This document shows, piece after piece, positions 8,878-55,669 of a DNA stretch of 64,000 bases. The position numbers were made by a program, and so were the translations under genes. The stretch is taken from the NCBI RefSeq assembly GCF_000507845.1, contig NZ_KI669455.1, positions 1 through 64,000 on the forward strand. The letters run 5' to 3'. Each line of letters starts with the position of its first letter. Position 1 is the first letter of the stretch. Below the pieces are notes generated by a model. The model saw only the letters and a list, made by a program, of their open reading frames with translations, was not told the DNA's origin and did no database searches. Source of the stretch: Helicobacter macacae MIT 99-5501 (GTDB lineage: Bacteria; Campylobacterota; Campylobacteria; Campylobacterales; Helicobacteraceae).

Positions 8878-9006
8878 CGTCATTGCGAGATTCTGCGCAA
8901 GCAGAATCGTGGCAATCCACCGTTAAAAAGAATGCAGAACCAAGAGTGGATTACCACGCAGATTTTGCGATTCGCAGAATCTATCACTTTTTATCATTGC
9001 GAGGAC
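8878..9006. repeat. CATTGCGAG-type palindromic repeats in the 8689-9055 gap
   Basis: The 367-base gap between pgdA and the CxxC gene contains no gene. It holds cgtCATTGCGAG followed by a perfect hairpin ATTCTGCGCAAGCAGAAT and GTGGCAATCCA (8878-8921), an inverted partner (tggattaccacg, about 8951), and a second CATTGCGAGG (about 8995). The same words recur at 21254, 25551-25660, 34646-34946 and 35288. Confidence 0.75.
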
Positions 9007-21253: not shown

Positions 21254-21395
21254 CGTCATTGCGAGAATCGCAAAGCGATTCGTGGCAATCCACGCCCTTA
21301 TTATCAAAGGGCGAATCCACACCCATTGTCATTGCGAGACAGTGGCTTTAGCCACAACGAAGTAATCCGCAAAATCTAGCGCAAATTCTAGAATC
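21254..21395. repeat. CATTGCGAG-type palindromic repeats upstream of mazE
   Basis: GTCATTGCGAG, hairpin GAATCGCAAAGCGATTC, then GTGGCAATCCACGCCC (21255-21297). A second unit, TCATTGCGAGACAGTGGC with TTTAGCCAC, follows at about 21330-21360. Same family as at 8878. Downstream, TATACT hexamers at 21435 and 21447 are candidate -10 boxes for mazE. Confidence 0.7.
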
Positions 21396-22352: not shown

Positions 22353-24740
22353 TTGATTAACAAATTTTCTAAAATAAATTACGGCTCTTATCAAAATTTT
22401 GAATGGAGCGATTCTTTACCAGAATTTAAAACATTAAATATCCTTTATGGGCGAAATTATGCAGGAAAAACAACACTATCAAGGATTTTAAGAAGTTTTG
22501 AAGCAAAAGAACCGCACCACAATTATCCTAACGCTACTTTTGAAATAAAATTTGAAAATAATAATACTTTAAATGAATCTAATATCAAAGATGAACATAA
22601 AGATTTGTGCATAAGGGTTTATAATAAAGATTTTGTTAGAGAAAATTTAAGTTTTCTCATCAATGATGACGCACAAGGCGCAAATATAAAAGCTTTTTCG
22701 TCTATTGTGGTAGGAAAAATCAATATAGATATTCAAACTGAAATAGAAAAATTAAAACAGCAATTAGGTAATCAAAAAGATGAGGAACAAAATATTGAAG
22801 CAAGTGGCTTTTATAAAGAATTGCAAGATTTAGAAAATAATAAAAAAGAAATAGAAAGGCAAATAAAAGATAAAAATCAAGATGAACAATTAAGAGAGAA
22901 AGCAAAAAGCATAAAAGCAAATCCAAATTTTATAAAGCAAGGCAGAAATTATGATATTACAATTATTAAAAAAGATATAAATGAAACAATTAAAGATGAA
23001 AATAATATAGCTCAACATATTATTTCACAGCAAAAGCAAGATGAATATAGAAATATCATTAAAGATGAACCGAAAAATCCTATAAATTTTAAAGTATTAT
23101 TTAATCAAAATAATTTTTCTCAAATCGTAAGTGGGGCAAAAATTCTCATAGAAAAGGAAATCATCGCAAAAGAGGTTATAGAAAATGATTTAAGAAAGTG
23201 GCTAGAAAAAGGTTTGGAATTACACCAGCACGATAGTGAAAAATGCAAATTTTGCGAAAGTCCGTTAAGCAAAGAAAGGATTAAATGGCTTATTGAACAT
23301 ATAAAAGATGATAGTAGCGATAAAATAGACCTTGAAAATAAGCTACAAGATTGGTTGAATAATTTTGAAAGCTATAAGGCATTAGATAGCAATGTCGTGC
23401 CCATTAAAGATGATGTGTTTTATGTCCAAAACAAAGACAAATTTAATAATTTAAAGGAAAATTTGGCTAACAATATAAAATGTTATAATGATGAGCTAGA
23501 TAAAATAAAAAAGTCAATCCTATCCAAACAAGACAATATCTTTGAAAATTTACAATTAGATACAAATTCAATCAAAGATTATTCACAAGAAATTCAAAAA
23601 GATTTGCAATCTATTCAAAGTCTATGCAATGAAAATGACGAAAAAACTAAAACACTTGGTGAGGAACAAAACAAAGCTAGAGAATGTTTGAGATTAAATG
23701 GGGTAGCAAATTTTATCAAAGATATAAAATATTTTGAAACGCAAGCTGAAATTGAAAAATTAAAGCAAAGTTTTAATAAATATGACGAGAATGAAAAAAT
23801 CGTTAAAAGCAATATACAAAAAACAAAAAATGAGATTGAGAAATTAGAAAATTCTTTAAGCGATGAAAAAGCAGGTGCAGACAAGGCAAATGAATATCTA
23901 AAAAATTTCTTTGGATATAATCAATTAGAATTCAAGTCTATACCCGATAGAAATGGTGAGTTTGAAATCCATAGAGCAGGGAAACCAGCTAAAAATTTGA
24001 GTGAGGGCGAGTGTAGCTTACTTGCTTTTTGTTATTTTGTGGCTAAATTGCAAGACAAAGACACAGAAGGTAAAAAACCTATAATTTGGATAGATGACCC
24101 TATTTCTAGCCTTGATAACAATCATATCTTTTTTGTTTTTTCTTTGATTGATAGTGAGATTGCTAAATCAAAAAATTACACACAGCTTTTTATCTCAACC
24201 CACAATTTAGAATTTTTGAAGTATTTAAAAAGTTTAACAGGTTTTGAATTGCGTGGCAGTGAGACACAATGGACACCAATGTTTTTAATAGAAAAACAAC
24301 ATTCAAGCGAAATTAAAAAAATGCCACTTCACATAAGAAAATATATCACGGAATATAACTATCTTTTTGAAAAAATTTTAGAATGTGCTAAATTTCAAAC
24401 GCCTAACGATATTACGGTAGATATTTATTATGGTGTTGCAAATCATATTAGAAAATTTTTAGACTATTATTTATTTTTCAAATATCCAAACAATGAAAGT
24501 TTGATGAGAAAATATGAATATTTTTTCGGCGATTATCAAAAGGCTAGTTTTGTTAATAGGATAATAAATGAATTGTCTCACTTGGAGGAAACTACCATTA
24601 GGGCTACGGTTCCACTAGATTTGCAAGAGATACAAAGAGTTGCTCAATGTGTTATCAAAACAATCAAAGCAAAAGATAAGGAGCAATTTAACGCATTGTT
24701 AGAAAGTATAGGCAAAAGTGGAGGTAAGGATAATGTATAG
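22353..24740 (+). CDS. RloC/COG4694-like zinc-hook ATPase, putative anticodon nuclease
   Basis: 795 residues from a TTG start with taggag 5-6 bases upstream. Walker A LYGRNYAGKTTLS (about 31-43), long coiled coil, a zinc-hook CKFC (about 298-301) midway, ABC signature NLSEGECSLLAF (about 547), Walker B IIWIDDPISSLD, then a C-terminal domain with HIRKFLDYYLFFKYP and NRIINELSH. This is the architecture of RloC, an SMC-like ATPase whose C-terminal PrrC-type domain cuts tRNA anticodons when type I restriction fails. The catalytic Arg-x3-Glu appears as R-KFL-D, so activity is uncertain. It lies directly before hsdS, the usual 'R-linked' position in Campylobacter. Markedly A+T-rich. Confidence 0.8.
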   Translation: MINKFSKINYGSYQNFEWSDSLPEFKTLNILYGRNYAGKTTLSRILRSFEAKEPHHNYPNATFEIKFENNNTLNESNIKDEHKDLCIRVYNKDFVRENLSFLINDDAQGANIKAFSSIVVGKINIDIQTEIEKLKQQLGNQKDEEQNIEASGFYKELQDLENNKKEIERQIKDKNQDEQLREKAKSIKANPNFIKQGRNYDITIIKKDINETIKDENNIAQHIISQQKQDEYRNIIKDEPKNPINFKVLFNQNNFSQIVSGAKILIEKEIIAKEVIENDLRKWLEKGLELHQHDSEKCKFCESPLSKERIKWLIEHIKDDSSDKIDLENKLQDWLNNFESYKALDSNVVPIKDDVFYVQNKDKFNNLKENLANNIKCYNDELDKIKKSILSKQDNIFENLQLDTNSIKDYSQEIQKDLQSIQSLCNENDEKTKTLGEEQNKARECLRLNGVANFIKDIKYFETQAEIEKLKQSFNKYDENEKIVKSNIQKTKNEIEKLENSLSDEKAGADKANEYLKNFFGYNQLEFKSIPDRNGEFEIHRAGKPAKNLSEGECSLLAFCYFVAKLQDKDTEGKKPIIWIDDPISSLDNNHIFFVFSLIDSEIAKSKNYTQLFISTHNLEFLKYLKSLTGFELRGSETQWTPMFLIEKQHSSEIKKMPLHIRKYITEYNYLFEKILECAKFQTPNDITVDIYYGVANHIRKFLDYYLFFKYPNNESLMRKYEYFFGDYQKASFVNRIINELSHLEETTIRATVPLDLQEIQRVAQCVIKTIKAKDKEQFNALLESIGKSGGKDNV

Positions 24741-26326
24741 TAACTTACCAACAAATTGGCAAGTTAAAACACTTGGCGAAATCGGCGAGATAGTTTCTGG
24801 TGGCACACCCACAACTTCACAAGCCGATAATTTCGGTGGCGATATTGCTTGGATTACCCCTGCAGATTTGTCAAATTACAATGACAAATTTATATCACAA
24901 GGCAAAAGAAACATTAGCGAAAAAGGCTTAAAAAATTCATCTGCAAGGCTAGTGCCAAAAGGCACGATACTTTTTTCATCAAGAGCACCGATAGGATATG
25001 TAGCCATAGCGTCAAATTCATTATGCACGAATCAAGGGTTTAAGAGCCTGATTCCAAACGAAAATGTTTTTAGCGAATTTGTATATTATTATTTGCTTAA
25101 TTCAAAAAGTTTAGCCGAGAGTTATGCAAGTGGCACGACATTTAAAGAAATTTCTGCTAAAAGTTTTTCTAAATTGCAAAATCCCCATTCCGCCATTAGA
25201 GATTCAAAGACGCATTGTCAAAAGGCTTGATGAGGCATTTTCTCGAATCGAGAGTGGCACAAAGCACCTAAAATCTGCCAAAAACAATCTCACCAAATAC
25301 AAGCAAAGTCTGCTAAAATCCGCATTTAATGGCACACTTACGCAGGATTGCCACCTATCGCTAGGCAAATCCACACACTTAACCCACCCCCTAGCCCCCT
25401 CCGCAGAGGGAGGGGGAATAAGAAAAGTGCAATCCGCAAGGGAGGGGGAAAGAGAGAATAGCCCACGCGCAATGGCTGGGGAACAAGAGAGTAGCCACGC
25501 GCTAAAAAGTCCCCTCCCGCAGCACGAGGGGCATTTAGGGGTGGGTAGCACTCGCAATGACGATAAAGTTTCCCCCTCCCTTGCGGAGGGGGCTAGGGGG
25601 TGGGTAAGTCCTCTCAATGATAATGCTTTGGATTGCCACGCCGACAAGTCGCCTCGCAATGATGATAAGGATTTGCTCAATGGTAAATCGGCGAATCTCC
25701 CGCAAGGCTGGACAATCAAAACACTTGGCGAAGTATTATCAAGCGACAAACACGCTATGAAAAAGGGACCCTTTGGAAGTTCCCTTAAAAAAGAATTTTT
25801 TGTAGATTCTGGAATCCGAGTATTTGAGCAATACAATCCTATAAATCAAGATTCAGATTGGAAACGCTATTTTATTACACAAGAAAAATTTAAAGAGTTA
25901 GAATCTTTTAAGGCTGGTGCTGGTGATTTGCTGATTAGTTGCTCTGGGACATTAGGCAAAATACTTGAATTGCCACAAAATGTTGAGATGGGCATCATAA
26001 ATCAAGCATTGCTAAAAATACGGCTTGACAATACGCAGATTTTAAATGGCTATTTCGTGCATTTGTTTAATTCGCCAAATATGCAAAGGATTATTTTAGA
26101 AAATACGATTGGTTCGGCTATCCAAAACATTGCAAGTGTAAAAGTGTTAAAACAAATCAAAATCCCCATTCCGCCATTAAAGATTCAAAAGCAAATCGTG
26201 GCGATTTTAGAAAAGCATTTCACTAGCGTGGATAAGGTAAGAGCGTATATCGACTCTTGCCTATCCAAAGCCAAACAACTAAAATCAAGCCTACTAAAAT
26301 CCGCCTTTGCGGGTGAATTGGTATAG
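24733..26326 (+). pseudogene. hsdS: Type I specificity subunit hsdS with one frameshift
   Basis: ATG 24733 follows ggaggtaagg and overlaps the previous gene by 8 bases. First target-recognition domain: LPTNWQVKTLGEIGEIVSGG. At about 25180 the frame changes: the first frame reads FSKLQNPHSAIRD, the next frame continues KIPIPPLEIQRRIVKRLDEA, which matches the second-half copy KIPIPPLKIQKQIVAILEKH. The run ttgcaaaatcc needs two more or one fewer base. The two recognition halves are joined by about 95 residues translated from repeat DNA (25369-25680) before LPQGWTIKTLGEV. HsdS reads the DNA sequence and bridges two HsdM subunits; as written it is broken. Confidence 0.8.
25369..25680. repeat. G+C-rich composite repeat inserted in frame in hsdS
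   Basis: The ends are near-perfect inverted copies: acccaccccctagccccc with ctccgcagaggg (25382-25418), and ccctcccttgcggaggg with ggctagggggtgggt (25570-25605). The interior contains a second palindrome (cccctcccgcagcacgagggg) and CATTGCGAG-type words in reverse (ctcgcaatgacg, ggattgccacg). The whole is translated without a stop in the hsdS frame. The same assembly, in opposite orientation, is present at about 34700-34900. Confidence 0.8.
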
Positions 26327-26333
26327 CGCAATT

Positions 26334-26831
26334 CTATTCTAATACAAACTTTGCTTTTTCATCGCGCAAAAATTTTACAACATCTATACATTCTATGCCT
26401 AGTCTCTCACATACATTTGGGATTTTTATTTGATTTTTTGCATTATTGCCACTTTTTGCTTCTTGCGTAACGATAATGTAATTTTCTTGCAATGCTAGGG
26501 CGATGAGAAAATAATCAGCGTGCCTTGAAAAATTTGCGATTGCTTGTTGCGCGTATTCCATATCTATTAGCGTTTTTGCAGCCTTACTATAAGATTCTGG
26601 CGTTATGTTTTCGACAGGTAAAAAGAAATGATTATCCTTTAGATTTTGCCTAAAATTCTTAAGTCTTTCATCATCAGGTGTAAATTCGTCATAAACTTGT
26701 ATTATAGATTTTACATTGTCTAGTTTTGAGACTTTGATTAGAAAGTGCCAAAATCCCGGGCAAATATCAATAGCATAATGTCTATTAGCAGATTCTATAA
26801 AAATGTTTGTATCAATTAAATATTTTTTCAC
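26334..26831 (-). CDS. PIN-domain (DUF4411-type) toxin-like nuclease
   Basis: 165 residues. KKYLIDTNIFIES at the N-terminus gives the first PIN acidic residue; later RHADYFLIALAL and IVTQEAKSG give the other conserved acidic and Ser/Thr positions. PIN proteins are Mg-dependent RNases. The GTG start overlaps the stop of the ImmA-type gene (tagtg), which marks a coupled two-gene module. I recall the combination of DUF4411 with an ImmA/IrrE protein as a recurring toxin-antitoxin-like pair in genomic islands. Confidence 0.8.
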   Translation of the reverse strand: MKKYLIDTNIFIESANRHYAIDICPGFWHFLIKVSKLDNVKSIIQVYDEFTPDDERLKNFRQNLKDNHFFLPVENITPESYSKAAKTLIDMEYAQQAIANFSRHADYFLIALALQENYIIVTQEAKSGNNAKNQIKIPNVCERLGIECIDVVKFLRDEKAKFVLE

Positions 26832-27955
26832 TAGCGAACTCCTAATTTTTCGGCTAATGTATTAAAAGATTTTATGTTTTTTATATCAAGCAAATCCATA
26901 GCGTCTTTGTAGGTTTCATAGCCATTTAGTGTATCTATAATCACGCTTTTGGCAAAGTTTTTGCTATTTGCAGCAGTTATATTTGAATAGTAATCACCAC
27001 CAGATTTTTTTTTGATTTTTGTGATACTTGTCAAAAATGTTTCTTTAAATTCTTGATATTCATAGTTATTGGTAAGTTTGGCAAGCAGTGCTTTTGTGGC
27101 TATCGCTAATGGACTTGCAGTATCATTGAAATATGCAGAAATGTTTTTTATGTTGTTTTCTAGGCTAATATTTTTATTCCATTGTTTTGTGAATTCATTT
27201 GTAGGCATAAGAATCTCACCTGCAATTTCATTGCATTGATATTCTTCATTTGCACGAAAATCATAGGAGCTTACACCGCTATGCTTAAGCACGATATGGG
27301 CTAGCTCGTGTAGCAAGGTAAAAATCTTGCCATTTACGCTTGAATCATTTGAGTTTATAAAGATAAGCGGTGCATATTCATCATAAATAGCATATCCTCT
27401 GCATTCTGTGATACTAATAGGTTTTTGTGTTTGATTTTGCGACATTCCGCTTTGTTGGACTATGATATTATTGGATTCTAGTGCCTGTTTTATGTGGGTA
27501 AATCTTTCGCTTTTTGATTTCTTTTTGGCATTATCAAAGTCGATTAGGATTTTGATTTCTCGTATAATATCAGCGTTAGAATTTATTTTTTTGTCCTTTA
27601 GGAATTTATCATAACCATTTCTTATGAGATAGTTTCTAAACCACTCTTGCTTCTTTTTACTTGTGCCTATACAGCTTTGCAAATTAGGCGAAAAATCCCT
27701 GCTATCTGCCCTAAAGTCAGGCAAAGCATTTTCTACCTTTGGCAACTCTGGCAAAAATAGATAAGCAAAGGGGATATTTCTGTAATTTGCAAGTTTTATG
27801 AGTTTATCAGTGGCAATCTCAATAGAATCTACGGAATTACTTATAAAGTCATTGAATTGCTTTATTTGCTTTGCACTTTTAAAAACTTTAACAATCTCAT
27901 CTTGTGAAAACGCTAGTTTTTGGATAGTAGCGATATGGTTGCTACGCAATATCAT
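26831..27955 (-). CDS. ImmA/IrrE-family metallopeptidase, antitoxin-like partner
   Basis: 374 residues from ATG 27955; gaaggga lies 6 bases upstream, whereas the ATG 15 bases earlier has no ribosome site. The zinc motif is TLLHELAHIVLKH (about 217-229) followed by ANEEYQCNEIAGEILMP, where the Glu of NEIAGEILMP is the third ligand. There is no obvious helix-turn-helix of the classical XRE type in the N-terminal 60 residues, though a helical region (AFSQDEIVKVFKSAK) is present. Such proteins cleave repressors or act as antitoxins for PIN partners. Confidence 0.8.
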   Translation of the reverse strand: MILRSNHIATIQKLAFSQDEIVKVFKSAKQIKQFNDFISNSVDSIEIATDKLIKLANYRNIPFAYLFLPELPKVENALPDFRADSRDFSPNLQSCIGTSKKKQEWFRNYLIRNGYDKFLKDKKINSNADIIREIKILIDFDNAKKKSKSERFTHIKQALESNNIIVQQSGMSQNQTQKPISITECRGYAIYDEYAPLIFINSNDSSVNGKIFTLLHELAHIVLKHSGVSSYDFRANEEYQCNEIAGEILMPTNEFTKQWNKNISLENNIKNISAYFNDTASPLAIATKALLAKLTNNYEYQEFKETFLTSITKIKKKSGGDYYSNITAANSKNFAKSVIIDTLNGYETYKDAMDLLDIKNIKSFNTLAEKLGVR

Positions 27956-28049
27956 TGCAATTCCCTTCATATAAGCTTATGCTTTGATTGTAGTGTTTTT
28001 TCGCTAAAATAACCATAAAATCATTTCATAAATTTACAAGGACAATAAA

Positions 28050-29690
28050 ATGAATCCACAAAATTTAATAGCCAAAGTCTGGGACTATGCAAATATCTTG
28101 CGCGATAGTGGCGTAAGCTACACCGACTATGTCGCACAGCTAAGTTACCTGCTATTCTTAAAAATGGAGAGCGAAATAGCGAGTGTAAATCCTAGCGCGG
28201 TGTCAATGATACCAAGCGAATACCGCTGGGAAGTGCTAAAAAGGTTAGACGGCTTAGAGTTAGAAAGTGTATATAGCAAGGCATTGGCGGAATTATCAAA
28301 ACAGGGCGGAATCGTAGGCACGATTTACCAAAAAGCCCAAAACAAAATCACCGAACCCGCCAAACTAAAACGGCTAATAAGCCTAGTAGATGGCGAGACT
28401 TGGCTGGGGCTAAGTGTCGATGTCAAAGGCGCGATATATGAGGGGCTTTTGGCAAAAAACGCCACAGAGACAAAGGCGGGTGCGGGGCAGTATTTCACCC
28501 CGCGCGTGCTGTGTGAAAGCATAGTGCGCCTTATGCGCCCCACGCCACAAATGAGCGTGTGCGACCCTGCGTGTGGCACGGGTGGCTTTCTGCTTGCGGC
28601 TTATGCCTATATGAAATCCCAAAGCAACGATAGCGAGGTGCTTCGTGCGTTGCGCGAGGATAAGCTCTATGGCAAGGACATAACGCCACTTGTGGTAAGC
28701 CTGTGTGCGATGAATCTCTTTCTGCACGGGCTTGGGGTGGGATTTGGCTCTAGCGGGGCAAACTCTGAATCAAGCACGACAAACTCCGAATCTGAATCAA
28801 GCACAAAAACGCACGAAGATTCACGAAATCCTAAGCAAAAGCCCCAAAGGGCGTTAGTAAGCGAGGGCGATTCGCTACTAGAGCTTGGCAGTGTGCGCTT
28901 TGATATGGTGCTGACAAATCCGCCCTTTGGCAAAAAGTCTAGCACAAAGATTATGGGCGAAGATGGTAGCGTGAAGCGGGAAAGCGAGACATACACGAGA
29001 GAGGATTTCATCGCTACGACAAGCAATAAGCAGCTAAACTTTTTGCAACACATTATGAGCCTACTAAAAGTGCGTGGCAAAGCCGCTGTGGTGCTACCTG
29101 ATAATGTGCTTTTTGAGGGCGGGGCGGGAGAAAAAATCCGCAAACGACTTTTGAGTGAATTTGACTTGCATACGATTTTGCGCTTGCCTACGGGGATATT
29201 TTACGCGCAAGGCGTTAAGGCAAATGTGCTGTTTTTTGACAAATATGAGGCGTTGGCACAGGGAATGCGCACAAGCAAGGTGTGGGTGTATGACTTGCGA
29301 ACAAATGTAAATCTAAGCCTTGTAAGCAATCCTTTGAGTGCGGAGCATTTGGCGGATTTTGAGAAGTGCTTTTGCGGTGGGGAAGTGCCAAAAGATTTGG
29401 GCGATTTGGCTAAAAATGCGGGGGAATCTAGCGCGTCTAATGGAGATAGCGCGGATTTTGCTATGCTTGATTTTGCCACTATGTTTGCTAGGCGCGTGGA
29501 GAGTGAGCGATTTCGCGCTTTTAGCGTAGAGGAGATTTTGGCGCGAGATAAGGCAAACTTAGACATATTTTGGCTAAAAGATGAGAGCTTGGGCGAAGTA
29601 GAGTCGCTACCCACCCCGCGCGAAATCGCCACAGTTATAAAAGAGGATTTGCAAAGCGCGATAAGGGAATTTGAGAGCGCGGGAGTCTAA
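28050..29690 (+). CDS. hsdM: Type I DNA methyltransferase subunit HsdM
   Basis: 546 residues. N-terminal helical domain (LIAKVWDYANILRDSGV), AdoMet motif I DPACGTGGFLLAAY (about 171-184) and catalytic NPPFG (about 290-294), all intact. A Ser/Glu/Thr/Asn-rich insert (NSESSTTNSESESSTKTHED) lies between them. HsdM methylates adenine with HsdS. Last gene of the defence island. Its partners hsdR and hsdS are broken in this sequence, so a complete type I system is not encoded here. ATG follows acaaggaca. Confidence 0.92.
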   Translation: MNPQNLIAKVWDYANILRDSGVSYTDYVAQLSYLLFLKMESEIASVNPSAVSMIPSEYRWEVLKRLDGLELESVYSKALAELSKQGGIVGTIYQKAQNKITEPAKLKRLISLVDGETWLGLSVDVKGAIYEGLLAKNATETKAGAGQYFTPRVLCESIVRLMRPTPQMSVCDPACGTGGFLLAAYAYMKSQSNDSEVLRALREDKLYGKDITPLVVSLCAMNLFLHGLGVGFGSSGANSESSTTNSESESSTKTHEDSRNPKQKPQRALVSEGDSLLELGSVRFDMVLTNPPFGKKSSTKIMGEDGSVKRESETYTREDFIATTSNKQLNFLQHIMSLLKVRGKAAVVLPDNVLFEGGAGEKIRKRLLSEFDLHTILRLPTGIFYAQGVKANVLFFDKYEALAQGMRTSKVWVYDLRTNVNLSLVSNPLSAEHLADFEKCFCGGEVPKDLGDLAKNAGESSASNGDSADFAMLDFATMFARRVESERFRAFSVEEILARDKANLDIFWLKDESLGEVESLPTPREIATVIKEDLQSAIREFESAGV

Positions 29691-29814
29691 AATCGCAGGC
29701 AGTTTTTAGGCGATGAGAATTTGATAAGCGCGGGATTTACGCACGCGCTTTTCACGCAAGGGTAGCCACACATTTGCGCTAGCCTTTAAACTTGCTATAT
29801 TGCAAAATCTTTGT

Positions 29815-29820
29815 TACAAT
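29815..29820 (+). promoter_or_regulatory. Probable -10 box of efp
   Basis: TACAAT 31 bases before the efp ATG, preceded by an A+T-rich stretch with cttgctatatt. It fits a sigma-70 promoter restoring independent expression downstream of the island. Confidence 0.4.
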
Positions 29821-29851
29821 CGCGCATTTATACCAAAACAAAGGAGCAACA

Positions 29852-30415
29852 ATGGCAATAGGAATGGGCGAGCTTAAAAAAGGCTTAAAAATCGAAATTG
29901 AGGGCGTGCCTTATCGCATCGTAGAGTATCAGCACGTAAAGCCGGGCAAGGGAGCGGCGTTTGTGCGCGCTAAAATCAAGTCATTTTTAGACGGCAAAGT
30001 GATTGAAAAAACATTTCACGCGGGCGATAAATGCGAAGAGCCAAACATAGTTGAAAAGCCTATGCAATACCTCTACCACGATGGCGATAGCTATCAGTTT
30101 ATGGATACAGAGAGCTATGAGCAAACCGCGCTAAGTGCCGACCAAGTGGGCGAAGCAGCCAAATGGCTACTTGACGGTATGGCTGTGAGCGTGCTACTAC
30201 ACAACGAAAAGGCGATAAGCGTAACCGTGCCTCAAATAGTCGAGCTAAAAATAATAGAAACCCCACCAAACTTCAAGGGAGACACCTCATCTGCTGGCAA
30301 AAAGCCCGCCACTCTAGAATCTGGAGCGGTGGTGCAGATACCATTCCACATACTAGAGGGCGAGACAATCCGCGTAAATACCGAAACAGGCGAATATGTG
30401 GAAAAAGTGAAATAG
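29852..30415 (+). CDS. efp: Translation elongation factor P
   Basis: 187 residues from ATG 29852 (caaaggagcaaca upstream); the frame extends 60 bases further 5' but without a ribosome site. KOW-like domain with [12 protein letters not shown], whose loop Lys enters the peptidyl-transferase centre to relieve polyproline stalling, then OB domains ending [16 protein letters not shown]. Full length and no oddities. In H. pylori this gene follows fba. Confidence 0.95.
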
Positions 30416-30539
30416 GCGCGCTAGGTGTGTGGTAGGGTATCAAAAATCGTGGCTTATAGCTATTGGGCTAGGTAATTGCGTAGTGTGTGGATAAATGCGC
30501 GAAGTTATGAAGTGTAGTGCGAGATTACAAGGGACTAAA

Positions 30540-31297
30540 ATGAATAATATTATCGCATCATTTGTAGCATTATTTTTGACTATGCCTTATGGTGCGAGCG
30601 CACAGCACGGTAGCCCTAGCACGCACTCATCTACTATCGCCCCCCCCCCCCTATAAAATCAATTCCCACAGCACAATCAACACCTAAAATCAATAAGCAA
30701 AGCCAAGATTTTGCAGAGCAGGAAGTGCAAAATCAAAATGTCAAAGCCAAACAACTAGACACAATAGCCCAAAATCTACCCAAACAAAACACCACCAAAA
30801 GCCCAAAACAAAATCCCGCGTTTAGCGAAAATCTAAACGCACTAAGGTTTGAAATAGGCTCTAGCGTGCGAGGAAATGGCTTTGAAAACCACCACAACGC
30901 ACAAATCATTTACTCACAGCCAAATCATATATTTCGCATACACGGACGGATAAATCTCGAGCTTGGTGGATTTTTGGGGTTTGGGAGTGTCGCGGGGGTA
31001 GATTTATCTAGTATGAATTTAGCATTTTTAGGCATTAGCGAGGAGGCTTTACTGCCACTTTTTATGAGTCAAAAATACGGCAATATCTATGCTGGAGTGG
31101 GGCTTGGGGCGTATATCAAAAGCAAAGGCGAAGTGCGCGTGATTTCAAACTTTACCTTTGGGGAGCGCGTGTTTGTGGGGTATTTGTGGAAAAAGTTTAG
31201 TAGCGAAATCTTTATCAAGCACTTCTCAAACGGCACTCTAAGCAAGCCAAATGCAGGACATAATTTCTTTGGATTTTGCTTTGGGTATGTGTTTTAG
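30540..31297 (+). pseudogene. pagL: Phase-variable lipid A 3-O-deacylase PagL, currently out of frame
   Basis: ATG 30540 opens a signal peptide (MNNIIASFVALFLTMPYGAS), then crosses a run of 12 C (30640-30651) and hits TAA at once. The rest, in the next frame from the tract to 31297, has no stop and encodes an outer membrane barrel ending HFSNGTLSKPNAGHNF and FGYVF. HxSN is the PagL active site (His, Ser), with Asn at +10 as in PagL; the third catalytic residue (Glu at +14) is Asn here. With 13 or 10 C the two parts join into a 252-residue precursor. PagL removes the 3-O acyl chain of lipid A. A GTG at 30725 would lack a signal peptide. Confidence 0.82.
30640..30651 (+). repeat. C12 switching tract in pagL
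   Basis: Twelve consecutive C directly after the signal-peptide region. The current length gives ATC-GCC-CCC... then CTA-TAA; one more C gives CCT-ATA-AAA and an open frame. Confidence 0.9.
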
Positions 31298-31386
31298 GTT
31301 TTTTTACAAAATGACTAAAATCAAATGCTATTTTGGCAACGCGGGCATAAAGTGATTTCATCAATCAAATCTAGCAAAAACTCTAG

Positions 31387-32841
31387 CTAGCAAAAGTCAT
31401 CAAAAGTATCTCCGCCACTCCATTTTAAGCCTTGCGCCAAAGTCCAATATTTATACGCACCCCGCTCCTTAAAAAAACTCCCACGATTGATATGCACAAA
31501 GAAGTTGTTTTCATAGATGATTTCCACAAGTGCAAAGTGCTTGACATTTCTTTCATCAAATTTACAAATCACAAATATAGCCTTACTAGATAGAGCAAAA
31601 TCTAAAACGCTTGCCGAGTTGTTTTTGTTTTGAGAAAATAGTGCTTCTTTTTGCAAATTTTTACAATAATCCTCTAAAGGCGTGTCGCTAGCCTCTTTTG
31701 GACATAGCAAAAATTCAGTAGGCGTTACCCAAGCGCGTTGCTTGGCAATACTTGGCAACAAAGCTTGTGTGTCATAGTCTGCTATATTAAAATTTAGCTC
31801 ATTTGCCACAATTTCTTGCTGTCTTGACCTTTCTTGCTCTTGATGATTTTTTAAAGATTCCTGCTTTTCCCTTTGTCTCTCTTCTAGTTCAGGTATCAGC
31901 TCTTTGTATGTTGCCTTTTGTGCTTCTGTGATATAGCCACAATTTATATGGACAAAGAAGTTGTTTTCATAGATGATTTTTAAAACCGCATAAGATTTTT
32001 TATCCTTCATTCTTGCTTGTGTTTTTATTTGAGAGATGACAAAAATCGCTTCTTTATTTTTACTCATCTCAAACTTTATAATACGCGATGAATTAAAATT
32101 GTTTTTTGTCAAAGTGGCGTTTCTTTTGAGATTTTTATGGTAGTCCTCTAAAGGCGTGTCGCTAATTTGCTTTGGACATAATATAAATTCCGTAGGCGTT
32201 GTCCAATATCTCTGCACTGCTACACTTGGAGATAGGGCTTTTATGTCATAGTGATTGATTGCTTGTGGATAAATCGGCTTATAAATCCACTCGCCCATTT
32301 TAGTTGTCGTTGTGGAATGTGGTTTATTTCTCTGTGATGATAAATGTTGCAAATTTTTTAGACAATTTTGCGCTTCCTCATCGCTAACTTCTCGCATCCA
32401 CTCTATGTTTTTATCACTACTTTCTAAAACCTTATTTCTTAAAATCTGTGGATTTTGCAAAAATGCCCTTATACTCCCGCAATAATACTCGATTTTGCTC
32501 CGCGTGATTGGATTTAGAATGGCATTTTCAAGTCTTGTTAAATATCGTAGATTTTGGGGGCGATTATTTTGGCGATTGGTGTCTATGTGGTCTGTTATAT
32601 GCTCTTTTGTGGGTGGTTCTCCGTGAAAAGCAAGTGCAACAATCCTATGAATCCTAGCACTGCCTATGTAGAGATAACCATTTTGTAAATTTACCTTACC
32701 AAAAGTCCAACAATTATCCAACTTTCGCGCTTTTTTCCCTGCTGGTGTGTGTCGCAAAACCGCTCCATTATCCCGCACGCAGTAGCACTCATTTTTATAC
32801 ACACATTCTTTGACTTCCACAAAATCATCTATAAGATTCAT
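31387..32841 (-). CDS. HNH nuclease-domain protein with duplicated C-terminal domain
   Basis: 484 residues. A NUMOD4-like N-terminus (YCVRDNGAVLRHT) leads to an HNH_3 domain: IHRIVALAFHGEPP, HITDHIDTNRQNNRP, NLRYLTRLEN. Two copies of an unrecognised domain follow: TTPTEFILCPKQISDTPLED (about 217) with IIYENNFFVHINCG, and VTPTEFLLCPKEASDTPLED (about 370) with IIYENNFFVHINRG, separated by a Glu/Gln-rich helix. The HNH part is like those of homing or mobile nucleases; the duplicated part may bind a partner or nucleic acid. There is no signal peptide. Isolated on the minus strand between pagL and the DJ-1 gene. Function otherwise unknown. Confidence 0.7.
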   Translation of the reverse strand: MNLIDDFVEVKECVYKNECYCVRDNGAVLRHTPAGKKARKLDNCWTFGKVNLQNGYLYIGSARIHRIVALAFHGEPPTKEHITDHIDTNRQNNRPQNLRYLTRLENAILNPITRSKIEYYCGSIRAFLQNPQILRNKVLESSDKNIEWMREVSDEEAQNCLKNLQHLSSQRNKPHSTTTTKMGEWIYKPIYPQAINHYDIKALSPSVAVQRYWTTPTEFILCPKQISDTPLEDYHKNLKRNATLTKNNFNSSRIIKFEMSKNKEAIFVISQIKTQARMKDKKSYAVLKIIYENNFFVHINCGYITEAQKATYKELIPELEERQREKQESLKNHQEQERSRQQEIVANELNFNIADYDTQALLPSIAKQRAWVTPTEFLLCPKEASDTPLEDYCKNLQKEALFSQNKNNSASVLDFALSSKAIFVICKFDERNVKHFALVEIIYENNFFVHINRGSFFKERGAYKYWTLAQGLKWSGGDTFDDFC

Positions 32842-32982
32842 ACCTGCCCCCTAGCGTGATTTTTGTAAGATTTGCTAAATTTGTATCCTTAAGTATTATA
32901 TAATCAATGCGTATTTTTGTGTAGCTAAAATTTTAGTAAATTTGGACGCGTCAGAATTTAAATTTTAAAAAGGAGAGTAAAA

Positions 32983-33903: not shown

Positions 33904-33995
33904 AAGCGCGTTTTGCCCTCGCAAAAGGTTTTGTGCAAATATCCCAAAACCAAAACCCCTGCAAAAATTTTGCAACGATTCTAAAGACACCAAAT

Positions 33996-34628: not shown

Positions 34629-34639
34629 TTCTAGCTTGA

Positions 34640-34960
34640 CTTTGTCATTCGTCATTGCGAGCAAATGGGCATAGCGAATTTTTGTTGCAAGCCAAAAACA
34701 TTATTAGCGTGAGGTGCTACCCGCTCCTAAATCCCCTCGTGCTGCGGGAGGGGACTTTCTAACGCGTGGCAATTCTCTTGTTCTCCCTCCCTTGCGGAGG
34801 GGGCTAGGGGGTGGGTTAAGTGTGTGGATTTGCCTTGCGATGAGTGTGTGGATTGCCACGATTCCACGCTTTCGTGCGGAATCCCGCAATGACGATTAGG
34901 TTTTTGGATTGCCACGCAAGTTTCGCGTAGCAAAATCGTGGCAATCCAAAAAAATCACAA
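34640..34960. repeat. Composite G+C-rich repeat, reverse copy of the hsdS insert
   Basis: In order: GTCATTGCGAG word (34650), cccctcgtgctgcgggagggg palindrome (34733-34753), ccctcccttgcggagggg-gctagggggtgggt (34785-34815), aagtgtgtggattt, then ggattgccacg units (34849 and 34906) around a ttccacgctttcgtgcggaa hairpin. Read on the minus strand it matches 25360-25560 in hsdS over most of its length, including cacacacttaaccc and cacgcg words. Covers the gene-free stretch after the flavodoxin gene. Confidence 0.8.
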
Positions 34961-34969
34961 AGGAACATA

Positions 34970-35255: not shown

Positions 35256-35904
35256 AATCACCGCGCCACTATCGCAAGGTGAAGTTTTGTCATTGCGAGA
35301 GAATCCGCAAGGTTTCTCGTGGTAATCCACGCTTTTGTCCGTTGTCATATTGAGGACAAGCGAAATATCTCTTTTTGTCTTGCGTTGTTTGCAGAATCTT
35401 TTGAGATATTCCTTGAGATACTTCGGGCTATGCCCTCAGTATGACAAAGAGTTTTATTTACAGGGAAACTTCTTGAAACCCCCTCCCTTAGAGTAACCGC
35501 GTTCGACTCTCTTAAAGCCCCCTCCCTTTGCGGAGGGGGTTTGGGGGTGGGTATCTTTTGCATTGGCAAAAGCGTGGAAAGATTCGTCATTACTAAAGAA
35601 ACTACGGTTTCGCCTTGTTTTCTAAAGAAACTTCACTTCGTTCGTTTTGTCACGCAAGTCTTGCGACTTGCTCGCAATGAGGGAAAAGAACCCACCCCCT
35701 TTATCCCCCTCCGCAGAGGGAGGGGAGATAGTTTGATTGCCTCTCCACTTGCAAGGGAGGGGGGAAAAGAGAGCGACAACTCCGCAGAGGGAGGGGAAAC
35801 CCCCACCACAAAAACACCTCACAAATAAACCCAAACAAACCCAAAAAAAAACACCCCAAAAAACCCCAAACCCCCCAAACCCCCCAACCCCTCCAAATTC
35901 TCCC
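35256..35904. repeat. Repeat-rich, gene-free region next to the autotransporter
   Basis: 649 bases with no credible gene. Contents: GTCATTGCGAGAGAATCCGC hairpin unit (35288), a palindrome with gagatattccttgagatac, then several G+C-rich units: ccccctcccttagagtaacc (35479), ccctttgcggagggggttt and gggggtgggt (35521-35551), acccaccccctttatccccc (35693), gcaagggagggggg (35754), tccgcagagggagggg (35783). The last 90 bases are almost pure A and C. Confidence 0.75.
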
Positions 35905-38661
35905 CTACCAATCCCCGCCAAACCACAGCGCGTATTTGATATTTAGCGCGTTACTCATTCCGTTAAATTTATTGGCAGCTCGCCCATCATCGCCATTTAC
36001 GAAGTTAAAGTTTGAGAAAAAGATTCCATTATAGCCAAAACTTAGCTCGTGATTGCGCTTGACTATCCACACAAAATCCATATCAAGATTGCCATATAGT
36101 GCGGGCAAGTAGATTTTGCCCTCGCCCGGCAAGCCACCGATGCGGAAGCTCCCTGTGGGCGTGTTTAGGATATTGTATCGCAAGCCACCCAAAAAGCTCG
36201 TTTTAAATCGTTCTCCCCACACTTTGTAGTATTTCACGCTAGCACCTAGCTGGGGCAAATGCCAATACTGCTCGGGATAGTATTCATTCCCGCCTAAGCC
36301 GTATTTTGCCTTTGCGAGTTTCATCGCTAGTGGAGCTAGCACATCATAGCTTATGCCAAACTCTGGGCTTATATACCCGCCACTTTTGTATTGATAAAAT
36401 GTCCACCCACCGCGAAGCTCCCCGCCGATACTCCACATAAGAGGAAATGTAGAGCCACTTGAGTTGGATTCTAGCTCAAATTGTATATGAGGCAGTGGGG
36501 ATTGTGCTTTTAGCATAGGTATATCCACGCCACCGCGCAAGTTTGCCTTTAGATACCCCTCACGCACTTGCCTTTTTTTGGTTTGTATAGGGATAAGTTT
36601 GAAATATGTCGCGCCTGTTTGCAGGGCATTTGTCTGTGCGATAGAAGTCGCCCCTAGCATTTGGGTAGTGATGTGAGCGTATTCATAGGCGGCATATACC
36701 CCTACGATTCCTTTTGCTTTTAAGTCCTTTTGCACGCCCATAAGGATTCCCCCTGCCCACTCCGTAGCGTTTGTTATCCCCATATCTGCTAGAGAATTCA
36801 CCGCATAAGGCACAAAAAACGCGATATGAGTTTTTTTGCTATCATAGGGGAGAAATTTCTCTTCTACTTTTGTTTGCCTTTTGCGATACCTGCTTGTGCC
36901 TCCTAGCTTGCGCATAGAGGGTGCGTATCGCACTTGCCCTGTAAATTTATTTGTCTCAAACATCTCTCCACGCGCTTTAGCTGAAGTTTTGTCATAGCTT
37001 GAGGAGCGGAAGTTTTTCTTTAGCAAAGAGTCCATTATGTTTTGAAGCATTATAGACCGTCTAACATAGCTCAAAGTCAGTGTCCTCCACATAGACGAGC
37101 CATAGCTAGTGCTGACATCAGCACTTACCGTAAAGCCATCATTTCCAGCCCTATGTAGCTTCGTGCCTAGCCCTGCTCGCAAGGACTCAAAGGTTACTTT
37201 CCCACTCCCTTTTCCACCAGATTTATCTAGGATTATGTTTTTATACTCATATTTCTCGCTACTGCTAGTTACCCCCTCGCCTATGTTGATTCTTATCGCG
37301 CCCTCTCCTACCGTGCCTAGAGTAGTGATAGTCCCCTCTACTGCGATATGCTCATCAGTCCTGCCTGTGCCTCCCTTTTTTATTCCCGTGCCTGTGTTTC
37401 CATTTATCGTGTGCTTGCTCCATTCATTGCCATTGCTATCAAGCGTGAGGGTGGACTGATACACATTTAGCGTGCTTATCGTGCCGTTACTACCACCTAT
37501 GAAGTAGTTTCCTAGCAAGCTAGCATAGTCCCCGCTAAATTTATAATACCCCAAATTTAGCGTTTGTATAGAGCCGTTATTGGTTATTTGGCTGACAAAT
37601 GTCGAGCGAGTGCCTCCGTCATATCCACCATAGATAGCCATAGCAGCTGAAGTGATACTTGCTCCACTATTTATGGTAATCCCACCGATGATAGTGCCAT
37701 CTGCCTCTCTGCGCCCTATCTGTGTCCCTGCGTGGACATCAAAAGCGATTTTCACACCAGCTCCATACACCGCATCAGAGCCCCAGCTTTGGTTATTTAT
37801 CGTGCCGCTCACAGTTAGACTTCGTATCGTAGAAGCGTTTGCAGTGTGATTTCCTAGAGTGTAGGGGAGTAGTAGTCCAGCACTTGAATTGCCTGTGATA
37901 TTAAAATCCGTGTTTGGCGCAGATACAGAGCGAAACACGAGGTTATTACCTATGGTAGCAGTTACAGTGCCAGCACTCACGCTAAGGGGGTTATTCTCCC
38001 CCCTGCCAAGATTGATAAGCATATTTTTACTATTGATAGCTGTTTGTAAATCCTGTGGGGCGAAGTCCCCTGTGCAGTCTAGATAGGGTTGATTTCCATC
38101 GTTCTTTTGTGTGCAAGTGCCTGCTATGGCTAGCTCTAGGCTAGCACTTGCTAGTGCACTTGCTGTGAGGAGGGATAGGGCTAGCTTGCGGGAGGTTGGG
38201 GTGGTTTGTTGATTTGCGACTTTAAAAGCCCCCTCCCTTAGAATAACCTTGTTTGGCACTCTTAAAGCCCCCTCCCTTGCGGAGGGGGTTTGGGGGTGGG
38301 TGTTTTTTGCAGATTTTGCACTTAGCTCAGAATCTAGCTTTGAGATATTTGCTTTTGAAATACTTGTGGAATTTGTATTTGCTTGGTTAGCAGTTGCGTT
38401 TTTGTCGTTTGCAGTTGCTGACTTTGCTTGAGAAGCGGAGGTAGGATTTACCCACCCCCTAGCCCCCTCCGCAAGGGAGGGGGAATAAGTGGAATCGCCA
38501 CCTACAAATGAGGGGGAAATTACAGATTGCCCCTCGTAAGTGGAGGGGGAACTGATTGGATTGCTTGCGCTCTCAAAGGAGGGGGAACTAAGCGACTTTC
38601 CATTGCTAGCCACTTTTTGCCACGACTTCATTGCTGTGGCTTCCTTGTTTGCGGTTTTCAT
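35905..38661 (-). CDS. Autotransporter (type V secreted) with repeat-derived leader
   Basis: 918 residues; ATG 38661 has aaaaaggacata upstream. A hydrophobic signal segment lies unusually deep at about 159-180 (LALSLLTASALASASL, then AIAG). The preceding 158 residues are Ser/Ala/Asn-rich and contain at least five translated repeat units (SPSLAEGARGWV, SPSFVGGDS, SSPSTYEGQ, TPSAREGALR). The passenger (about 185-560) is rich in Gly/Thr/Asn/Ser beta-helix motifs. The C-terminal third forms an outer membrane barrel with alternating strands and a terminal aromatic (KYALWFGGDW). Likely a surface adhesin or VacA-like protein; no toxin motif is visible. Confidence 0.8.
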   Translation of the reverse strand: MKTANKEATAMKSWQKVASNGKSLSSPSFESASNPISSPSTYEGQSVISPSFVGGDSTYSPSLAEGARGWVNPTSASQAKSATANDKNATANQANTNSTSISKANISKLDSELSAKSAKNTHPQTPSAREGALRVPNKVILREGAFKVANQQTTPTSRKLALSLLTASALASASLELAIAGTCTQKNDGNQPYLDCTGDFAPQDLQTAINSKNMLINLGRGENNPLSVSAGTVTATIGNNLVFRSVSAPNTDFNITGNSSAGLLLPYTLGNHTANASTIRSLTVSGTINNQSWGSDAVYGAGVKIAFDVHAGTQIGRREADGTIIGGITINSGASITSAAMAIYGGYDGGTRSTFVSQITNNGSIQTLNLGYYKFSGDYASLLGNYFIGGSNGTISTLNVYQSTLTLDSNGNEWSKHTINGNTGTGIKKGGTGRTDEHIAVEGTITTLGTVGEGAIRINIGEGVTSSSEKYEYKNIILDKSGGKGSGKVTFESLRAGLGTKLHRAGNDGFTVSADVSTSYGSSMWRTLTLSYVRRSIMLQNIMDSLLKKNFRSSSYDKTSAKARGEMFETNKFTGQVRYAPSMRKLGGTSRYRKRQTKVEEKFLPYDSKKTHIAFFVPYAVNSLADMGITNATEWAGGILMGVQKDLKAKGIVGVYAAYEYAHITTQMLGATSIAQTNALQTGATYFKLIPIQTKKRQVREGYLKANLRGGVDIPMLKAQSPLPHIQFELESNSSGSTFPLMWSIGGELRGGWTFYQYKSGGYISPEFGISYDVLAPLAMKLAKAKYGLGGNEYYPEQYWHLPQLGASVKYYKVWGERFKTSFLGGLRYNILNTPTGSFRIGGLPGEGKIYLPALYGNLDMDFVWIVKRNHELSFGYNGIFFSNFNFVNGDDGRAANKFNGMSNALNIKYALWFGGDW
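38222..38600. repeat. G+C-rich repeats within the autotransporter leader
   Basis: Units at 38228-38300 (ccccctcccttagaataacc; ccccctcccttgcggaggg; gggggtgggt) and 38448-38590 (acccaccccctagccccc; gcaagggaggggg; then three degenerate aggggga units about 40 bases apart). All are read through on the minus strand without a stop. The 38228 unit matches the one at 35479-35551 downstream of the same gene. Confidence 0.8.
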
Positions 38662-53185: not shown

Positions 53186-55669
53186 ATGAACGAAGTAACA
53201 TTACCAATCCAAAATCCTAGCAAGACTAGAGGAAAGTCTAGAGAAAAGAGAATCTCTAGCAAAGCATTTGCATTCACACTAAGCCTTAGCCTAGCTACTT
53301 CCCTCGCTCTAGCTGATAACGAGAGAGAGAGAGAGAGAGTAACTCCCGCGCAACAAACTGCTAAAGATTCTGCTTTAAATTCTACCCACCCCCTAGCCCC
53401 CTCCGCACAGGGAGGGGGGACAAAGATAGATTCCTCCGCACAGGGAGGGGGGACAGAATCTAGCACAGATTCAAATTCTAGCAAAGAATCCAACTCAAAT
53501 TCTAGCCTAGATTCTACTCAAAATCCTGCCAACTCAACCTCACAACATAGTAGCCTAACAGCACAAGACAAACAATACGACACTCTAGAAGCAAAGCAGT
53601 TGCAAAAAGTATCTGTAACCGTCTCTACCGCTTCAGGAAGTGAAAAAAATATCGTAACCGCGCCAGCTAGCGTAACGGTCATCACCAAAGAGGAGCTAGA
53701 GCAAAAGCCCTATCGCGATTTGGGTGAAGCACTAAAAGAAGTGCCCGGCGTAAGTCTAGAATCCACCAGCAACAAGCTCGGCGCAAGCGCGATTAGCATT
53801 CGTGGTATGCCTGCAGGATACACACTTTATCTACTTGATGATTTGCGACAAAATCCAAGCGGTGATGTCGCCACAGCAAATCTAGGCACAGGCGTGTATA
53901 ACACATTTATGCCACCTACTAGCGCGATTGAGCGCATCGAAGTTATCCGCGGTCCTATGAGCACGCTTTATGGCTCTGATGCACTAGGAGGGGTGGTAAA
54001 TGTCATCACAAAGCCTATCACGCACAAATGGAGTGGCTCGCTTCAATCAACCGCGATAATCCCAGAATCTAGCACCTTTGGCAACACTTATCAAAACTCC
54101 CTATACCTCACAGGTCCTCTAAGCAACAAATGGGGGCTTACCCTGCGGGCTAGGCAGCTCACACGAGAAGCAAGCAAAAAGCCAAAAGATGACAGAGGCA
54201 ATGTGGTAAATACATTTTTTGGCACGCAATATGTGATGTTTAATGTCGGTGGGAGGGTAAGCTATGTGCCAAGTGATAAAAACACATTTTTTGTAGATTT
54301 GGACTACTCAAAATCCACTTATGACAATCAAAAAGCACAAATCGGCACACTAGGTGCAAATGGCCCCACAAACGGCAACTACACAGGTGGCTATGAGGAA
54401 TGGCTAGGAGTAAATAAACTTGGTGCTTCTTTTGCCCACAAGGGCAACTACTCTTATGGCTCGTGGAAAAACTCTATCCAATTTATCCGCACAAACAATA
54501 CAGGACGCCTTGTCGTAGGCTCTAGCTCAAATCCAAATGTAACCAAAAATCGCGGAATCGCAAGTAATGATGTCATAGTAGACTCTAGGCTTTTAGCACC
54601 GCTTTTTGAAAACACTTTACTAGGCTCAAACTATCTCAATGTCGGAGCAGAATACCGCTTTGAAAACTACCACGATTTAGCCGCTACCCCTGCAAGCCAT
54701 AATCGCAATACTTTCGCACTATTTGCCGAAGATGAGTGGAATATATGGCGCGGACTTACCCTAACTCTTGGCGCACGCTACAACTTCAACGATAAATTTG
54801 GACACAATGTAAGCCCTAGAGGCTATATCGTCTATGAGATTCTCAAAGGCTGGGCGATAAAAGGCGGTGTAGCCACAGGCTATAAAGCCCCTTATGCAAA
54901 TCAAACTATCGATGCAGTTTATGGCTATGGTAGGCAGGGTGCATTGCCCTTTATCGGCAACCCTAATCTAAAAGAAGAAACTTCGATAAACTACGAGATA
55001 GGCACTGTGTTTGACAACAAATATGCTAATTTCTCGGTAATGTATTTTTACTCAAATTTCCGCGATAAGATAGAATCTCAAAGTGTAACTAGCACAAACT
55101 CGAGCGCGTGTGCTGCCTCTGGGGCGACAAACGGTTGTAGCAGGGCATACAATGCCGATAGTGCATACTCACAGGGCGTAGAGCTAAGCGCAAGCCTAAA
55201 GCCACTCTATGGATTTAGCGCGGATATAAGCTACACTTATATTGATTCACAGATTACTTCAGGTAGCAACAAGGGCAATCCGCTTAGCACTACTGCTAGA
55301 AACAATCTCTTAGGCAAAATCGCTTATCAATACGCTAGATTCAACGCCTTTTTGCAAGCGCATTTCCGTGAGGGCATAGTAAATACAACTGCGCTAGGCA
55401 ATGGCACACAAGAAATCGCACTTAGAGGGTTACTTGGTGGAATCTACTACAAACCATCTGTGGTGCTTAATCTAGGACTTGGCTACAAAATCACCGATAA
55501 CATTCGCATAAACGCAGGCGTGTATAATCTACTAAATACAAATTTCGCAGACTTTAGAAGCTATACTTACAATGGCACAAACGGAAGCGTAAATGCCAAT
55601 GTAAACTACTATGGTCCCGTAATCCAAGAGGGCAGAAGATATTTTGTAACTTTGGCTTTGGATTTTTAA
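53186..55669 (+). CDS. TonB-dependent receptor, in frame, with (GA)9 and repeat-derived linker
   Basis: 827 residues. The signal peptide ends near LATSLALA-D (about 43). Directly after it a (GA)9 tract encodes NERERERV. Then comes a linker of about 85 residues that includes translated G+C-rich repeats (THPLAPSAQGGG, SSAQGGGTES) and Ser/Asn-rich sequence. Plug domain: ITKEELEQKPYRDLGEALKE, GVSLESTSNK, ISIRGMPAGYTLYLLDD, IERIEVIRGPMSTLYGSDAL, GGVVNVITKP. The barrel ends RRYFVTLALDF. The plug is of the CirA/FepA siderophore class. Currently readable from start to stop. Confidence 0.9.
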   Translation: MNEVTLPIQNPSKTRGKSREKRISSKAFAFTLSLSLATSLALADNERERERVTPAQQTAKDSALNSTHPLAPSAQGGGTKIDSSAQGGGTESSTDSNSSKESNSNSSLDSTQNPANSTSQHSSLTAQDKQYDTLEAKQLQKVSVTVSTASGSEKNIVTAPASVTVITKEELEQKPYRDLGEALKEVPGVSLESTSNKLGASAISIRGMPAGYTLYLLDDLRQNPSGDVATANLGTGVYNTFMPPTSAIERIEVIRGPMSTLYGSDALGGVVNVITKPITHKWSGSLQSTAIIPESSTFGNTYQNSLYLTGPLSNKWGLTLRARQLTREASKKPKDDRGNVVNTFFGTQYVMFNVGGRVSYVPSDKNTFFVDLDYSKSTYDNQKAQIGTLGANGPTNGNYTGGYEEWLGVNKLGASFAHKGNYSYGSWKNSIQFIRTNNTGRLVVGSSSNPNVTKNRGIASNDVIVDSRLLAPLFENTLLGSNYLNVGAEYRFENYHDLAATPASHNRNTFALFAEDEWNIWRGLTLTLGARYNFNDKFGHNVSPRGYIVYEILKGWAIKGGVATGYKAPYANQTIDAVYGYGRQGALPFIGNPNLKEETSINYEIGTVFDNKYANFSVMYFYSNFRDKIESQSVTSTNSSACAASGATNGCSRAYNADSAYSQGVELSASLKPLYGFSADISYTYIDSQITSGSNKGNPLSTTARNNLLGKIAYQYARFNAFLQAHFREGIVNTTALGNGTQEIALRGLLGGIYYKPSVVLNLGLGYKITDNIRINAGVYNLLNTNFADFRSYTYNGTNGSVNANVNYYGPVIQEGRRYFVTLALDF
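53321..53338 (+). repeat. (GA)9 dinucleotide tract in the second TonB receptor
   Basis: Nine GA units right after the signal-peptide codons, coding alternating Glu and Arg. Gain or loss of one unit shifts the frame; gain or loss of three keeps it. Confidence 0.9.
53378..53460. repeat. G+C-rich repeats within the TonB receptor linker
   Basis: acccaccccctagccccc followed by two tandem copies of tccgcacagggaggggg-gacaaaga / gacagaat. Same consensus as the repeats in hsdS and the autotransporter, here read as THPLAPSAQGGG and SSAQGGGT. Confidence 0.85.

Follow-up and report, generated by a model that had tools for sequence, protein, structure and literature searches.

The window analyzed in this study, the first 64,000 nucleotides of contig NZ_KI669455.1 of Helicobacter macacae MIT 99-5501, has a G+C content of 42% and carries copies of a short G+C-rich palindromic repeat, both between genes and inside three open reading frames (ORFs). 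Allowing up to three mismatches, the core CCCCCTCCGCANNGGGAGGGG matched the window 10 times, against a chance expectation of nil (100 dinucleotide-preserving shuffles gave a mean of 0.00 and a maximum of 0). Three of these matches sit at the three-mismatch limit, two of the three being partial units; seven sites pass a limit of two mismatches, of which five lie in ORFs of at least 250 aa. The intergenic copies are found at 34781..34816 (minus strand, with one mismatch in the stem), 35517..35552 (minus) and 35690..35725 (plus), with a partial copy at 35776..35796 (plus).

The first host gene, hsdS, is split over two frames. Its first half (24718..25230, plus strand, Methylase_S) ends in a frameshift upstream of the repeat-bearing half, and the second-half ORF of 400 aa (25124..26326, plus) holds the end of the first half's conserved region, a linker and the second Methylase_S domain, both halves being otherwise recognizable. 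The linker, of ∼117 aa and ahead of the second Methylase_S domain, contains one copy at 25382..25418 (plus; ACCCACCCCCTAG and the hairpin, reading THPLAPSAEGGG) and another in the opposite orientation at 25569..25605 (minus; reading SPSLAEGARGWV), together with a partial copy at 25433..25451 (plus) that is a perfect inverted match to 25569–25587. Because of the split, translation of these copies within a whole HsdS is not established. An autotransporter-like protein of 918 aa (35905..38661, minus) has two copies in its leader, past the N-terminal segment MKSWQK and ahead of the hydrophobic core, at 38268..38301 (minus; reading THPQTPSAREGAL) and, opposite to the gene, at 38450..38483 (plus; reading SPSLAEGARGWV). 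In the third host, a TonB-dependent receptor of 827 aa (53186..55669, plus), the copy at 53384..53417 (plus; reading THPLAPSAQGGG) lies in the linker from the signal peptide to the plug domain, and is followed 33 nt downstream by a partial second unit (53430..53450, plus; reading SSAQGGGT).

These places, and the peptides quoted for them, are those given by the initial annotation of this DNA, whose statement that no insertion adds a stop also holds, as all five full intragenic window copies are stop-free in the frame of their host. The span 25369–25680 that it had marked does cover the hsdS linker, but the units inside are shorter than that span, and its three coding regions correspond to five copies in three ORFs, with the frame-split hsdS not being an intact host. 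Both strands are indeed used, as it had claimed, but not different frames: codon phase 1 is shared by all five intragenic copies, both those running with the gene and those running against it, which amounts to one frame per strand.

Alignment of the copies defines a repeat unit of 37–39 nt with sharp edges, conservation being ∼2 bits per base inside the unit and 0.1–0.6 outside it (two main variants). The unit has ACCCACC at its edge, then a short C run with an internal TAG or TAA, or with AA or AG, and then an 8-bp stem (CCCCCTCC/GGAGGGGG) with a loop of 5–6 nt. The stem lies on one side of the unit, past the ACCCACC segment, and the terminal inverted repeats of a MITE are therefore absent. 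When five isolated window copies were folded as DNA, all formed hairpins, with z-scores of −1.3 to −2.3; three of the five had z < −2, and the other two were unremarkable, with 21 and 25 of 200 shuffles being equally stable. A 6–8-bp version of the stem was present in four of the five, the first copy favoring an alternative pairing. Two or three frames per strand of the unit are without stops, and the peptide that it would encode is short and Pro/Gly/Ser-rich, predicted examples being PTPLTPLRKGGG, SPSLAEGAGGW, SPSLAEGA and TPLRKGGG.

The exact pattern ACCCACCCCCNARCCCCCTCCGCA was scanned in genome contigs of 84,980 species (one genome per species) and was found in 38 stretches of nine genomes, belonging only to Helicobacter and 'Campylobacter troglodytis'. 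The search of relatives that the initial annotation had called for therefore shows that the copies form a family and, for the exact pattern, one confined to these organisms. At up to two mismatches, H. saguini has 53 core copies, C. troglodytis 51, H. aurati 15, H. mesocricetorum three, H. marmotae two and H. cinaedi one, with 17, 11 and six in the remaining three genomes; a reversed control pattern had no match in these nine. In a sample of 119 genomes of the family the repeat occurs in 11 (the reversed control matched once, in G012), and a looser, related 22-base pattern occurs in 11 of 397 Campylobacterota genomes, among them G203, whose match with two mismatches looks like chance; the reversed control in that scan gave one match each in G333 and G373. 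Phages or plasmids as carriers of the repeat were considered and rejected, since the full pattern has no match in IMG/VR and window positions 24000–38700 have none in PLSDB (megablast). A looser hairpin pattern matches three viral contigs.

How far the repeat lies within genes was assessed at 138 sites in fetched stretches of ten genomes, plus the seven window sites; coverage was partial for G002 (43 of 51 copies), G006 (four of 17) and G007 (four of 11), and G003 and G037 were left out. In H. saguini, 51 of 53 sites are in ORFs of at least 250 aa, which these copies leave open. As random positions in the H. saguini loci already give a share of 0.77, this intragenic excess is only moderate. 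The shares in C. troglodytis (13/43), H. aurati (8/15) and G039 (3/11) are all below those of random positions (0.51, 0.72, and 0.60, respectively), and the smaller sets gave 3/3 (G008), 2/2 (G052), 2/2 (G005), 1/1 (G009), 2/4 (G006) and 1/4 (G007). Given the shares of these three genomes, with most of the examined copies in C. troglodytis and G039 outside long ORFs, the family cannot be said to insert into proteins as a rule. A stronger point than the ORF share is that the frame is preserved in recognizable genes. There are 38 host ORFs in H. saguini, some of them copies of one gene (L112, L117), and a Pfam family was found in 30 of the 34 that were scanned.

The H. saguini copies fall mostly into three variants, of 39, 38, and 37 nt, and of the 47 in-ORF copies of these variants, a count that leaves out six of the 53, 45 keep to a single frame for their variant and strand. 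The classes are 12/12, 7/8, 11/12, 8/8 and 7/7, though two or three frames are open. Because of duplicated genes (L112/L117) and shared flanks, the figure overstates the regularity, most clearly in variant 3, and P is too small for every class but that of variant 1 on the opposite strand (7/8), which is not significant alone (P 0.07). A fixed frame per variant is still not what free insertion followed by stop avoidance would predict, and this weighs against the explanation that a REP- or MITE-like element is moved precisely by a trans-acting transposase, with purifying selection leaving the in-frame copies. Such movement would agree with a hairpin that has sharp edges, with the dozens of near-identical copies in several genomes, and with the arrangement of neighboring H. 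saguini pairs less than 300 nt apart (n = 13), which is REP-dimer-like: seven face inward (99–164 nt apart), one faces outward and five are tandem. Neither a fitting RAYT partner nor a target-site trace was, however, found. Y1_Tnp (PF01797), the one domain searched for a RAYT, is present in one of the nine repeat genomes, which is not one of the two richest; of the 119 genomes in the family sample 27 have it, but among the 11 with the repeat only G007 and G037. RAYT mobilization as a simple answer was rejected, Y1_Tnp being missing where the repeat is common. Target-site duplication was rejected as well, as the edges of 51 H. saguini copies show no direct repeat of 2–8 nt above the largest of 300 shuffles, and in this respect too the unit differs from a MITE. 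Pairwise extension of the flanks with permissive BLAST gave long, uninterpretable A+T-rich linker matches and was set aside. Taken with both sides of this evidence, transposition in trans is a real possibility, if a somewhat doubtful one.

Of the 22 host ORFs that lie in neither H. saguini nor the window, 19 were scanned with Pfam, and 15 of the 19 have a restriction-modification or DNA-methyltransferase domain (Type ISP, Eco57I, TaqI_C, N6_Mtase, N6_N4_Mtase, Methylase_S, and type III), L178 and L182 being less clear members of the 15. The remaining four are a DUF559 protein, a glycosyltransferase, a saccharopine dehydrogenase and a PBECR protein. The window hsdS fits the pattern, with its copies occupying the spacer that separates the two specificity halves; the window autotransporter and TonB receptor do not. 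Both the pattern and the spacer position would suit repeats that serve the cell, be it as RNA hairpins, as intergenic terminators, or as spacers altering restriction specificity subunits and leaders. Restriction-modification genes are long and often exchanged, so that their bias may be due to target size and transfer and not to any preference, and a role of this kind is rendered unlikely by the many H. saguini hosts that are unrelated housekeeping enzymes and by relatives that manage without the inserts. Two further observations concern these hosts. At L172, L178 and L182 the unit lies within very long ORFs having PBECR nuclease-like domains, and in C. troglodytis (L150:1125–5129) one ORF of 1335 aa combines two DUF559 stretches with six copies of the unit.

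Homology is found on both sides of the unit in 11 H. saguini ORFs, encoding MetRS, PolA, PheT, a histidine kinase, SerA, CopA, LysA, UvrD, a ResB/CcsA-type protein, MurD and a second UvrD-type helicase; the weakest of these are SerA, whose left side is a second Pfam stretch with its place not printed, and MurD, whose right side scores 19.9 bits. In LysA, UvrD, CopA, PolA and MetRS the unit crosses mid-enzyme with the frame intact, and alignments put other H. saguini inserts between aligned blocks. Were the ORFs mostly not translated through the repeats, owing to wrong starts, pseudogenes, or assembly errors, such crossings would not be expected. The split hsdS would fit this explanation, as would the several hosts with copies near the N-terminus (TonB receptors, autotransporter, PBP, M23 peptidase), but between the second repeat and the hydrophobic core the autotransporter ORF offers a GTG, codon 135, as its sole ATG/GTG/TTG, and general non-translation seems quite improbable.

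Relatives both with and without the unit exist, as the initial annotation had asked of an inserted segment, and both flanks are clear in the autotransporter relative P0126 and in LysA. Eight near relatives of the window autotransporter (P0122–P0129, from a protein search; several of the compared proteins are metagenome-derived) have bodies 88–96% identical to it. The peptide SLAEGARGW is in the leaders of P0122–P0125 (bodies 90–96% identical) and absent from P0126–P0129 (88–90%). P0126 is the only insert-free relative with the same start (MKSWQK), and in it a short unrelated segment replaces the insert; P0127 and P0129 begin with a different N-terminus, and in P0128 there is a diverged THPQTPLVLREGAY along with other repeat-like peptides. 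Within the 119 family genomes the autotransporter homologues are too distant for comparison. As the leaders of relatives contain more repeat-like peptides (CHTERSEVS, DISVSTKPQYDN), the autotransporter leader appears to be a hot spot shared by several families of repeats. A third repeat-like peptide (CHTERSEVS ... DISVSTKPQYDN) occurs in leaders of P0122–P0137, and an intergenic stretch of the window at 35344–35371, GTCATATTGAGGACAAGCGAAATATCTC, may be a non-coding relative of it.

For the TonB receptor, the unit is absent from ten orthologues (63–69% identical), whose linker is much shorter. The linkers of closer relatives (73–91% identical, some N-terminally incomplete) are variable: a related unit is present in P0152, P0154 and P0160, and P0161 and P0162 (80% identical) are without it. 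No precise empty site could be defined in HsdS homologues, which are too distant. In H. saguini LysA, residues 13–135 and 172–460 match adjoining chain residues of H. pylori DapDC (2qgh), with nine overlapping, and residues 136–171 are unaligned to it. The LysA of H. aurati and H. muridarum has nearly no extension at this loop; a sister LysA (80–81% identical) has a Ser/Lys/Asp-rich loop at least as long as that of H. saguini and without the repeat peptide, so that the unit sits in a loop that was already variable. An AlphaFold model of H. saguini LysA (42 sequences; mean pLDDT 83.4, pTM 0.84) places the repeat peptide at residues 145–157, with pLDDT < 50 over residues 149–171, a low-confidence stretch between helices at 123–142 and 173–181. 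On the expectation that inserts favor disordered linkers, the one insert modeled in full thus provides a single case in a low-confidence loop, whose low pLDDT may partly reflect the few sequences aligned there. That the linkers are ancestral and became repeat-like by convergence, as the variable LysA loop and the low-complexity linkers of H. saguini hosts might suggest, is very improbable, being contradicted by presence and absence among relatives with 88–96% identical bodies, by orthologues without the unit, and by a nucleotide sequence that is near-invariant regardless of the strand read.

Linkers of low complexity, rich in Asp, Ser and Lys, occur commonly in the host proteins of H. saguini. 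Separately, the heptamer GATTCTA/TAGAATC is strongly over-represented, mostly read in one frame, as Asp-Ser or Glu-Ser. It occurs 1311 times against 51 expected in the H. saguini palindrome loci (L103–L134), 45 against 9 in the window, ∼5–15-fold above expectation in other sampled Helicobacter loci, and 15 against 8 in C. troglodytis, these counts being from selected loci rather than whole genomes. The heptamer may represent another dispersed coding motif, or else a site related to uptake or methylation.

Overall, the evidence makes it probable that this is a family of short G+C-rich Helicobacter hairpin repeats behaving as DNA that is tolerated inside proteins. A copy landing in a linker or loop would do little harm and be kept, other insertions would be lost, and no function for the host cell would be required. 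With less certainty, at least part of the spread between genes may be due to recombination or gene conversion in which a segment already in frame is moved along with its linker; this would account for the fixed frame per variant and for near-identical element-bearing leaders on divergent paralogues. The window TonB receptor matches P0186, another receptor of H. macacae, without any difference over its first 89 residues, among which the element lies, the whole proteins being 40% identical, and residues 43–149 of the autotransporter are 92% identical to its paralogue P0130, with the body 72% identical. Together with the one frame per variant (45/47), such shared segments favor a partial spread by recombination of in-frame modules, though the leader sharing consists of two cases in one species and could also arise by common descent with faster-evolving bodies. 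A bolder version, that the repeat is a frame-carrying protein module that moves through shared in-frame linkers by recombination, without any transposase, and remodels enzyme loops proteome-wide, the linkers being stretches of Asp-Ser or Glu-Ser coded by GATTCTA/TAGAATC and other translated repeats, is speculative and as a whole rather unlikely.

Protein-coding palindromes have been described mainly from Rickettsia and Wolbachia. Like those elements, the Helicobacter unit is palindromic and occurs both between genes and in frame within unrelated conserved genes. It differs from the Rickettsia palindromic elements in length (37–39 nt, where those are ∼100–150 nt), in being G+C-rich in a window of 42% G+C and in another phylum, and in hosts that outside H. 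saguini are mainly restriction-modification genes. Compared in this way, by description, the unit behaves like a Rickettsia palindromic element without being shown to be one. The proposal of the initial annotation that a separate protein-inserting family of Helicobacter resembles the Rickettsia elements is therefore supported, by the family pattern, the open ORFs and the insert-free relatives.

The GTAG- and CGTC-tagged REPs, as presented in the available text of Di Nocera 2013 (PMC3733652), share with the unit short hairpins, frequent inverted dimers and some intragenic copies, and CGTC REPs are reported there to be without a dedicated transposase. Their tag is a terminal unpaired tetranucleotide, whereas the edge of the Helicobacter unit has neither GTAG nor CGTC; its reverse strand ends in GTGGGT, which was not counted as the GTGG variant of the tag that the same text gives for one species. 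In contrast to GTAG REPs with their RAYT (Y1_Tnp) partner, the domain accompanies the unit in 1/9 and 2/11 repeat genomes only. The tagged REPs are mostly intergenic according to that text; the unit is not so in H. saguini (51/53 sites in long ORFs) but is so in C. troglodytis (13/43) and G039 (3/11). Judged by the published tags, the unit does not belong to the tagged REPs, nor does it qualify as a MITE when judged by duplication. PARCEL repeats, in the portion of their description consulted (PMC2996958), are likewise palindromic, protein-coding and patchy over taxa, with one Helicobacter included (H. hepaticus HH0050), but they form tandem arrays of an amphipathic motif and are unlike the unit in sequence and organization. 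The word Helicobacter was not found in the text examined of Di Nocera 2013 (PMC3733652), nor was anything on the Helicobacter element in the accessible parts of PMC12306157, PMC7096620 and PMC2635572; among the results listed by the literature search, with most subscription papers outside its reach, there was no description of it.

A second repeat, (CG)TCATTGCGAG ... GTGGCAATCCA, is present in the window at 8878–8921, 21254–21294, 34652–34661 and 35287–35331, and does fit features that have been published for CGTC-tagged REPs. Within a gene of H. saguini (L116), a stretch similar to this second repeat adjoins the G+C-rich unit (WVIASDSEAIH).

By these comparisons the Helicobacter repeat appears to be a new equivalent of the palindromes that insert into Rickettsia genes. 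A second such family, in gut Helicobacter, mostly intragenic in one species and present or absent among close relatives, would open the questions of how the repeat moves, why it is in frame, and what effect it has on the enzymes that carry it. For annotation it would also serve as a warning that the Pro/Gly-rich loops of some Helicobacter proteins are inserted DNA repeats.
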